A stretch of 64,000 nucleotides of DNA from SAR86 cluster bacterium REDSEA-S09_B4 (lineage in GTDB: Bacteria; Pseudomonadota; Gammaproteobacteria; Magnimaribacterales; Magnimaribacteraceae). The translations under genes were made by a program, and so were the position numbers. The notes under the pieces are model-generated. The model saw nothing but the letters and a program-made list of their open reading frames with translations, was not told where the DNA came from and did no database searches. Of this stretch, positions 1,137 to 46,814 are shown one piece after another; the first letter of the stretch is position 1; every line of letters starts with the position of its first letter. The stretch is taken from assembly GCA_001628005.1 (NCBI GenBank), contig LUQU01000001.1, positions 42,752 to 106,751 of the forward strand, written 5' to 3'.

Positions 1137-1189
1137 TTTTAAAGAGCTCCTTATTTTACCTCTTGTCCTAAAAATCTCATTATATTAAA

Positions 1190-1216
1190 TAAAAAAGCCC
1201 CGCTCTAAGCGGGGCT
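1190..1216 (-). terminator. Intrinsic terminator of the intergenic RNA upstream of alkaline phosphatase
   Basis: AGCCCCGCT (1196-1204) CTA AGCGGGGCT (1208-1216): 9-bp stem, 3-nt loop; A-tract at 1191-1196 reads as a U-tract on the minus strand. Confidence 0.85.
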
Positions 1217-1405
1217 CTTTTAGAAGAAGTATCTCAACTGTCTTCTAAACTACCAATCTATAAATGTTTGGTAGCCGGAACCGGGGTTACCCCGTGTCAG
1301 AAGGCACCTCCTGTAATTCCTGCTAATAAATAAATACTAATTTGGACCACCTCCTTTGAAGGGTAATAACGATACCTGCTATTTGATCCCCCTTGTATCA
1401 AATCA
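1190..1405 (-). ncRNA. Candidate structured leader RNA / sRNA, family unknown
   Basis: Serial hairpins: ATTTGAT/ATCAAAT (1381-1387/1397-1403), CGGGG-TTA-CCCCG (1282-1294), CTACCAA/TTGGTAG (1250-1256/1268-1274), AGAAGA/TCTTCT (1222-1227/1241-1246), then the 1196-1216 terminator. Two SD-like motifs on the minus strand (1343-1356 and 1305-1312). No long ORF. Confidence 0.5.
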
Positions 1406-1535
1406 AATACAGAACAACTTGTACATAGAGTAACAATTTTTTTGAAATTTCCAAGCAAAATTGAAAGTGTAATTTTTGTGTATCCTTTAGTTATCTAAAG
1501 CTATATATGTTCAATTTATAAAATTACTGTATTAA

Positions 1536-3539
1536 TTAATTTTTAAGATCTATCCAATCCCTTTCATCTTTACTTAATTTTACTTCTAGGGCTTTAAGAG
1601 AGCTCCTGGTTTCAAAGAAATTTCTTGGTCCTATTAGAGGAAAGGAAGGAAAATCTTGATTCAATACAAAAGCTAGTGCGAGCTCAATCGGTTCAATTCT
1701 TTTTTCTTTAGCTAAAGAAAAACACCTTTTTCTTCTCTCAAGATTATCTGCACTTGACCAAACTCTGTTTTGCTCATGTTCATTAGGATTTGCAATATGT
1801 AAAGACCCTTCAAATTCTTGCTGTTCAAGAAAGAATCCTCTGGCTTGGCTTGACCAAGGGAATATTGCAATTTGCTTTTCTTTTAAAAAGTCCGTGAAAT
1901 CATCTTCAGAACAACTTTCACAACCAGGCCACACAGGTTCTAACATCCTAGCCAAACTGAAATTATTACTTAACAGACTAAAAGCATCTTTACCTGATGC
2001 TTCAGCATAAGTGATCGATTCTGAAAATCTAGAGAGTGACCAGTTAGAGGCTCCCATTAAACTTATTAAGCCCTCTTCTTTTAATTCGTTTAAAGCATCT
2101 ATAAATTCACTAACTGGCACCTCTAAATTATCTCGATGCAAACAATAAAGATCCAAATGGTCTGTTTTAAGTCTATCTAAGGATTCTTCTAGCTGCGGTC
2201 TAATTAAATGAGGATAGCAATCTGGAGTATGTGCTCCTTTTCCTAGCACTACTACTTGATCTCTTAAACCTCGATGATTCATCCACCTTCCCAAGTAAAC
2301 ATCACTCTTACCATTGTTATATATATAGGCCGTATCAAATGTATTTCCTCCTAAAGAGAAGTAATGATCAAACATAGCAAAAGCGTGATCACTTCCTGAT
2401 TGGTTATCACAGCCAAAAACCACCCGGGATAGCTCTTTATCAAGACCTTTAATCTTCGCAGAAGGAATAGTCCCTCTCTGTTTAAATGCCGACTTACCTA
2501 AAAGTGAGAATTCTCTATTCTCAGCGTTATCAGCAGAGTAATAAACACCAACCTTCTTTCTCCAAGCATCTAACCAAATCATATTTCCATGACTATCTGC
2601 ATGAGATATCTTCTTTGACTGTGTTTCTTTTTTGTTAAGAAGATCTACAAAGTGATCTATTTCATGAGTAAAAACCCCTTTGTCCTCTTTAAATTCTATG
2701 ACCAGATCCTCTTTCCCTTCCTTTTTAAAAATAATATTAGATTGTCTGTTGTTTTGTTCGCCACACTGCCAGGGCTCTGAAATAAATAAGGATTTTTCTT
2801 CATCAAAAATAAGAACAGAATTTTCCATTGTCTTATTAATTGCTGAACTTATTAGAGCCTTAGAACCATTAATAAACTCCAATTCAGCTTCTGCATTTAA
2901 GTCTATGTTTCTTGATGACAATTCTCCCTTTGCTTCAATATTAATTGGATTTGCAAAAGGCTTGCCAATTTGGGCACCTACCACCATTCTAGACATAGAC
3001 ATTGGATAACAACCTATATCCATTATTGATCCACCCCCAAGTTCAGGATTTACCAATCGATGTTCCTTAGGAACTTCAGCAGAAAAACCAAAAGAAGCTT
3101 CAATAGTTAAAGGCTTATCATAAAATTCTGTTTCCACTAGTTCACGAATCTTGTCCGTCTGCGGATGAGTTCGGTACATAAATGCCTCCATCAACAAAAC
3201 TCCATGGTTTCTGGCTGCATCTATAAGAACCATTGCCTCCGTTGAATTAATGGTCATTGGCTTTTCACAAAGTACTGATTTCTTTGCTTCAATTGAAGCC
3301 AAAGCTAGATCAAAATGTGAATCATGGGGTGTAGCTACATAAATAGCATCTAGATCATCGATATTAAGTAGGTTTTCATAGCCTTCTATTGCTAGACAAT
3401 TATATTTTTCTGCAAATTTTTTAGCCGTTTCAATTGATCTACTGGCTACAGCTTTTAAGTTTGAACCTTGACTATCTCGGAAGGAAACAGCCAATGCTCT
3501 GGCTATCATCCCTGTTCCAAAAATGCCCCAGTTAATCAT
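1536..3539 (-). CDS. Fused Gfo/Idh/MocA-family oxidoreductase + aldo/keto reductase
   Basis: 667 aa. N-terminus MINWGIFGTGMIARALAVSF (Rossmann) and CEKPMTIN (Gfo/Idh/MocA); C-terminal half FDTAYIYNNGKSDVYLGRW, VVVLGKGAH, LDLYCLHRDN (aldo/keto reductase). Confidence 0.9.
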   Translation of the reverse strand: MINWGIFGTGMIARALAVSFRDSQGSNLKAVASRSIETAKKFAEKYNCLAIEGYENLLNIDDLDAIYVATPHDSHFDLALASIEAKKSVLCEKPMTINSTEAMVLIDAARNHGVLLMEAFMYRTHPQTDKIRELVETEFYDKPLTIEASFGFSAEVPKEHRLVNPELGGGSIMDIGCYPMSMSRMVVGAQIGKPFANPINIEAKGELSSRNIDLNAEAELEFINGSKALISSAINKTMENSVLIFDEEKSLFISEPWQCGEQNNRQSNIIFKKEGKEDLVIEFKEDKGVFTHEIDHFVDLLNKKETQSKKISHADSHGNMIWLDAWRKKVGVYYSADNAENREFSLLGKSAFKQRGTIPSAKIKGLDKELSRVVFGCDNQSGSDHAFAMFDHYFSLGGNTFDTAYIYNNGKSDVYLGRWMNHRGLRDQVVVLGKGAHTPDCYPHLIRPQLEESLDRLKTDHLDLYCLHRDNLEVPVSEFIDALNELKEEGLISLMGASNWSLSRFSESITYAEASGKDAFSLLSNNFSLARMLEPVWPGCESCSEDDFTDFLKEKQIAIFPWSSQARGFFLEQQEFEGSLHIANPNEHEQNRVWSSADNLERRKRCFSLAKEKRIEPIELALAFVLNQDFPSFPLIGPRNFFETRSSLKALEVKLSKDERDWIDLKN

Positions 3540-46526: not shown

Positions 46527-46548
46527 AAACAGAGCCGAGGCTCTGTTT
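46527..46548 (-). terminator. Intrinsic terminator
   Basis: AAACAGAGCC GA GGCTCTGTTT, 10-bp perfect stem; A-run at 46523-46529 gives a U-tract on the minus strand. Confidence 0.75.
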
Positions 46549-46814
46549 AGTTCGAGTTCGAAAGTGTCTAAGTTTGAGTCTTTTTTCTTAGCTCCCTTGA
46601 TAAATTTCTCTTTTTATCTCGGTGGTCTAAAAGTCTTTTTTGCTAGCTTTTACTTTTAGAGCTTTTCGCCTTTCGTTCTCTAACCTTTTTAACTCTCCTT
46701 TTCTCGTCTCGAGTTGGTTCCAGGTCGGTTAAATTGGTCTAGTGATATTACTCTTATGGAAAAAAAATACAACCCTTTTTTTCAACTTTTTTTAAGTTTT
46801 TTTTGACTCCTTTT

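Follow-up and report, generated by a model that had tools for sequence, protein, structure and literature searches.

A pseudoknotted RNA of SAR86 bacteria with an extended Shine-Dalgarno sequence and a predicted 14-codon mini-ORF

An intergenic region of the SAR86 cluster bacterium REDSEA-S09_B4 carries a conserved, structured RNA on the minus strand. We analyzed a 64,000-nt stretch of this genome (the window) and propose that the RNA is a free-standing small RNA gene whose transcript would be built for translation. A pseudoknot would gate initiation on a mini-ORF, and the translating ribosome would open long-range helices. We consider this reading evenly balanced between right and wrong. SAR86 is a very abundant uncultured lineage of the surface ocean with streamlined genomes. 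Because a structured RNA has nevertheless been kept in nearly every genus of this lineage, it is probably under strong selection.

The RNA lies in a minus-strand gap of 399 bp (1535-1137), flanked on one side by an oxidoreductase/aldo-keto reductase gene (1536-3539) and on the other by an alkaline phosphatase gene starting at 1136 (PF00245, E=1.8e-68). The original prediction had described this large gap, the phosphatase downstream and a series of hairpins; measurement and domain search agreed with it on the gap and the gene. None of 200 dinucleotide shuffles folded as well as the minus strand (z = -4.58 for 1180-1410 and -4.81 for 1190-1423). With an MFE z of about -4.7, the hairpins are genuine and not a product of chance, yet hairpins alone describe the locus wrongly. 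The CTACCAA/TTGGTAG hairpin was found as claimed (P4, CUACCAA/UUGGUAG, 1250-1274, arms 1274-1268/1256-1250), and a similar hairpin occupies the same place in other SAR86 families. The AGAAGA/TCTTCT hairpin was also found (P5, AGAAGA/UCUUCU around AGUUGAGAUAC, 1222-1246, arms 1246-1241/1227-1222); it is present in families f1 and f3 and absent from f2 and f4. The CGGGG/CCCCG stem is present, but its loop is TAA and not TTA. The GC terminator with its U-tract was seen at 1222-1188 as a 15-pair stem, and a terminator-like element occurs in 109 of 114 homolog loci. Upstream, a promoter-like -10 box (TACTCT, minus strand, 1427-1432) keeps its alignment position across SAR86 families and reads TATAAT, TAATCT or TAATAT in relatives. 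Placed from this box, the transcription start would be near 1420. The predicted transcript would thus run from the promoter-like box to the terminator over ~233 nt (1188-1420, minus strand), and its homologs were collected with a model of the core.

The first predicted hairpin, ATTTGAT/ATCAAAT, was confirmed within a stem that we named P1 (UAUUUGAU/AUCAAAUA plus loop, 1380-1409 on the minus strand, arms 1409-1402/1387-1380). It is one half of a pseudoknot. The pseudoknot, the extended Shine-Dalgarno (SD) sequence and the 14-codon ORF (1341-1297) had been missed; the original reading is partly supported. P1 has 8-11 bp across homologs, and its loop ends in AAGGG(G). The GGG of this loop pairs with CCC shortly 5' of the SD, resulting in an H-type pseudoknot. 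The second helix, S2, joins AAGGG in the P1 loop (1390-1394) to CCCUU (1363-1359), and the CCCUU strand is also present in homologs with an AUG start (described below). S2 varies among lineages as AAGGG/CCCUU, CAGGG/CCCUG, GAGGG/CCCUC and CAGAGA/UCUCUG, with a two-sided change in two columns. In a per-sequence search, which chose another pairing in a few sequences, P1 plus S2 was found in nearly all 117 homologs; equally high scores came from 25 of 780 mononucleotide shuffles.

Applied to the full alignment, RNAalifold gave no more than P3, a long-range helix, and two weak pairs. This is because it excludes pseudoknots and the arms of P1 differ in position from family to family; P1 was therefore tested per family. 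In f2, 8 of the 11 pairs had two-sided changes, 99% of cells were paired, and none of 500 shuffles was as good. Two-sided changes were seen in four of eight pairs in f1, a less strong result. P3 (1277-1320, minus strand) pairs GGAAU of codons 8-9 of the mini-ORF (1320-1316) with GUUCC (1281-1277); the 3' partner is a UUCC beyond the stop codon. A two-sided change at the innermost pair was present in 24 sequences, and 95.5% of cells were paired. According to the original prediction, missing covariation and free sequence drift would speak against a functional RNA; P1 and P3 covary strongly, and the prediction was not refuted on this point.

A further helix, P0, tentatively joins the 5' end to the stop-codon region and crosses P3. 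Its 5' strand at 1413-1416 (minus strand) is UGUU, with UGUC the commonest form, and would pair with GACA of the UGA-CA stop region (1298-1295). P0 had 82% of cells paired and three pairs with two-sided changes, and the lineage variants GCGUC/GACGC and UAGUC/GACUA fit it. In a partner-swap test, own partners paired better than swapped ones (5 of 300 swaps as good in SAR86, 0 of 300 in SAR86 plus AUG types); in the homologs related to genome G568, the same test gave no P0 at the corresponding place. The outer pairs fail in many sequences, some of f1 and f2 among them. S2, P3 and P0 together had 55 two-sided cells, compared with 20 in shuffles. Neither P0 nor S2 appears in single-sequence MFE folding, as pseudoknots are outside its model. 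Comparison of homologs supports P1, S2 and P3, together with the SD complementarity, the conserved frame, the start position and the terminator; P0 appears to be supported less firmly than any of them.

The extended SD (AAGGAGGUGGUCCA, minus strand, 1343-1356) forms 14 contiguous pairs, G-U included, with the 3' end of the 16S rRNA of the same genome, compared with 3-9 pairs for 49 long ATG ORFs of the window. AUU lies 7-9 bases 3' of GGAGG. It opens a mini-ORF of 14 codons, (M)SIYLLAGITGGAF, which ends at UGA (1297-1341, minus strand) and whose frame is kept among homologs. In each of 71 distinct homologs the frame from AUU to UGA spans exactly 14 codons with zero in-frame stops, and the other two frames mostly contain stops; these sequences were picked by a pattern fixing the SD and AUUARUAU, so the invariance of AUU and SD is partly due to selection of the sequences, and that of the length, the absent stops and the UGA is not. 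The homolog of G036 (AUUAAUACG), found by profile and outside the pattern, likewise has 14 codons from AUU to UGA. P0, if right, helps explain why the SAR86 stop is always UGA. Two other features were considered at the ends of the ORF. A GTG inside AGGAGGTG was rejected as the start codon, as it falls out of frame where the lineage spacer is shorter or longer. A prfB-like frameshift at the UGA was also set aside, since visual inspection showed no conservation of the +1 frame beyond it.

Non-canonical start codons of Staphylococcus aureus, AUU included, go with extended SDs, and infC (AUA start) and cvfC1 (AUU start) carry such an SD (PMC13009471). Together with the AUU starts of infC and pcnB, these genes resemble the SAR86 RNA in that a non-canonical start would be rescued by an extended SD. 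Those starts open full-length genes, whereas the ORF of the SAR86 RNA has 14 codons, belongs to a free-standing RNA and is preceded by a pseudoknot.

A blastn search detected the element in 63 of 101 relatives. Model R1 was built from the 3' part (core) of the RNA, used a different RNAalifold helix and works mainly as a sequence profile. It located the element, nearly always in one copy, in 138 of 203 genomes from the order, in 21 of 22 genera and, among near-complete genomes, in 35 of 40; many of the misses are incomplete genomes. Upstream and downstream genes vary between families, the next gene is often convergent, and no partner gene travels with the RNA in the neighborhoods of homolog loci that we compared. 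In many genomes of f2 and f4 (L035-L049), a small conserved ORF (50-77 aa, e.g., MNNVVKIKNFDPVIEKYVASHDKK..) lies upstream of the RNA.

The original prediction had offered a transcription attenuator or leader of the alkaline phosphatase gene as one possible role. A cis-acting leader would control the gene that follows, alkaline phosphatase here and an EamA-like transporter in f2 and f4. The RNA does lie 5' of a same-strand gene in about half of the loci, and in f2 and f4 the transporter ATG is a few bases past the terminator. The alkaline phosphatase gene follows only in the window's own genus, though; elsewhere the next gene varies by family and is often on the opposite strand (of 109 loci where a downstream ORF was called, 59 have it on the same strand and 50 on the opposite one), and the terminator-like element is nearly universal. 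Because the downstream genes differ and are often convergent, the RNA does not serve the alkaline phosphatase gene as a leader, and its contexts argue against a cis-leader role, which we consider hardly probable. The leader-peptide attenuators trp, thr and tnaC are similar in that hairpins and a terminator come after a short ORF, and a short, putatively translated ORF before a terminator is found here; the SAR86 RNA was rejected as such an attenuator for its want of a conserved same-direction downstream gene or operon, the next gene being often convergent. The other role offered, a free-standing sRNA, fits its own promoter-like box and terminator, its order-wide conservation and its lack of an Rfam match. 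As a separate observation, the transporter ATGs in f2 and f4 (L035-L049) have no evident SD.

The RNA recurs in other Gammaproteobacteria beyond SAR86, as judged from sequence homologs. A pattern match in the 3.6-Mb genome NORP90 (G568) led to 11 further homologs among its relatives. AUU or AUC occupies the start position of these G568-type homologs; their ORFs mostly have 14 codons and end in UAG or UGA. A model made from them, R2, independently recovered the RNA of the window (E=0.002). It also found homologs with AUG at the aligned start place, all of them with the pseudoknot and a long SD. Six AUG-type ORFs have 14 codons (MSNECINGASGGTC, MSNDSMCAASGATC, MSNRCIIGAPGGTC, MSHRCIIGFSGGAC, MSNRCMYRTSGGTC and MSNGCINGASEGAC) and two have 11 codons (MSNGCIEVLTG and MSDGCIEVLTG). 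Their consensus is MSN-x-C-[IM]-x-G-[A]-S-G-G-[TA]-C, and G-A-S-G at codons 8-11 is common to the AUG and G568 types with different third bases. That AUG takes the place of AUU in these homologs is the main reason why we call AUU the start codon, and it argues that the predicted start is the true one. The AUG-type homologs also provide comparison material beyond SAR86. No match was found in phage, Escherichia coli or plasmid records, or in viral contigs scanned with a single AUG-type pattern. Pattern matches in Bifidobacterium, Chryseobacterium and Rikenellaceae were discarded, as the remaining anatomy was missing, and L183, L231-L238 and several weak R3 matches were inspected and judged chance or unrelated.

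The main rival to a transcript whose translation matters in itself is a small mRNA. Its product would be the 14-residue peptide, and the pseudoknot and SD would merely set the amount made. The fixed frame, start and stop are as expected for a coding sequence, and so are the AUG-type consensus and the G-A-S-G shared with the G568 type through other third bases. The pN/pS ratio was 0.64 in the AUG type, 0.51 in the G568 type and about 1.0 in SAR86, rough values from 13 codons pooled over related pairs in a small sample, in which RNA structure also limits the synonymous sites. Mild purifying selection within the first two groups suggests that the peptide may matter there. In SAR86, however, the peptides vary freely, and only S2, I3, G8, G11 and F14 are largely retained. 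In 70 of the 71 SAR86 sequences codon 8 reads GGA, as P3 pairing would require, and we read this as structural constraint on some codons. Moreover, the RNA is without a travelling partner gene. We consider a peptide-coding small mRNA rather unlikely. The SAR86 frame is absolute while the peptide drifts, which suggests selection for translation itself, more than for the peptide.

For such a translation-dependent RNA, the following mechanism is proposed; we infer transcription, translation, gating and any downstream effect from the sequence comparisons. The RNA would be transcribed from its own sigma70-type promoter and end at its own terminator. The 14-bp SD/anti-SD duplex would capture the 30S subunit, offsetting the weak AUU start (AUC or AUG elsewhere), and the H-type pseudoknot a few nucleotides upstream would gate or orient this capture. 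The ribosome would then read exactly 14 codons and halt at the UGA that may form part of P0. In crossing codons 8-14 it would have to open P3 and P0, and the translation state would thereby be turned into an RNA fold. The functional product in SAR86 is likely the working RNA with its ribosome, more than the peptide.

A decoy was also considered, in which the 14-bp SD and AUU would trap 30S subunits or sequester an initiation factor and so lower translation elsewhere. The SD is far longer than those of ordinary genes, and IF3 disfavors such start codons, as established for infC and pcnB. The pseudoknot borders the 30S footprint, a position shared with the rpsO mechanism, for which entrapment of the 30S subunit with a pseudoknot is established. 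A trap, however, needs no full, stop-terminated, never-interrupted ORF of 14 codons, and other lineages start with AUG. A decoy role is unlikely in our judgment. Like the SAR86 RNA, the rpsO (S15) translational operator has a pseudoknot next to the SD by which the 30S subunit could be trapped or gated. The rpsO pseudoknot includes its own SD and controls a ribosomal protein gene, whereas the SAR86 pseudoknot is entirely upstream of the SD, and the RNA is not followed by a ribosomal protein gene.

Identity with known RNAs was examined. The original prediction did not recognize a known riboswitch, and in Rfam 15 no family reached the gathering threshold at the RNA; a permissive search of the window gave sub-threshold matches only. 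Eight loci of G568 relatives gave nothing in Rfam up to E=0.5, and the Rfam scan gave no tmRNA above threshold at the locus. The RNA shares an H-type pseudoknot near the SD with the SAM-II, SAM-V and preQ1 riboswitches, but it has no Rfam match and no conserved downstream gene to regulate. 6S RNA (RF00013) is comparable in its stable-RNA-like size and conservation, but it is a separate locus. It was rejected here, as it sits on another contig (G000:C75:13017-13191), and 13 of the 14 genomes examined had a separate 6S match.

An ordinary Hfq- or CsrA-type regulatory sRNA, with the ORF a by-product of spacing constraints, would agree with the several GGA motifs and with the sRNA-like size and terminator. 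It does not account for the zero in-frame stops in 71 sequences or for a start codon that switches among AUU, AUC and AUG, and we consider it very improbable. A Csr/Rsm sponge was rejected, as the CsrA domain PF02599 was absent from 6 of the 14 genomes, all of f2 or f4, families that carry the RNA. CsrA was missing in the f2 and f4 genomes searched (G038, G040, G035, G056, G043 and G044) and present in f1 and f3. The dual-function sRNAs SgrS/SgrT and Spot 42/SpfP are also small RNAs with a short ORF; in this RNA, translation of the ORF is predicted from the comparison of homologs, and the ORF differs in being embedded in a conserved pseudoknotted fold.

The separate devices are already known; for their combination in a free-standing RNA, no description was found. 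The open-access literature searched contained no description of the RNA, though earlier metatranscriptomic reports could exist. With its absence from Rfam 15 and from that literature, the RNA class is new in this sense, and its working principle may be a variant of translation-coupled regulation. More tentatively, and with considerable doubt, we suggest an undescribed class of gammaproteobacterial RNA that would work as a translation-state sensor. Its pseudoknot, maximal SD, weak start and helix-locked stop would together make the fold of a free-standing RNA, and with it the activity of that RNA, dependent on the ribosome at a 14-codon ORF with a largely dispensable peptide. As a natural design, a conserved AUU start with a near-maximal SD and a mini-ORF in a multi-pseudoknot fold would be out of the ordinary. 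Through this RNA, IF3 discrimination, extended SDs and the coupling of RNA folding to translation could be put to direct test.

Two further observations were made. Stand-alone intergenic mini-ORFs with AGGAGGTGATCNNATGTCTAGT and terminators, in which no GGG/CCC pseudoknot was seen, occur in two other gammaproteobacterial families (L246, L254, L255 and L256) and may be a related or convergent class. The window also contains IMES-1 RNA (RF02034, 123 bits), a marine RNA of unknown function, at 46542-46734 on the minus strand.
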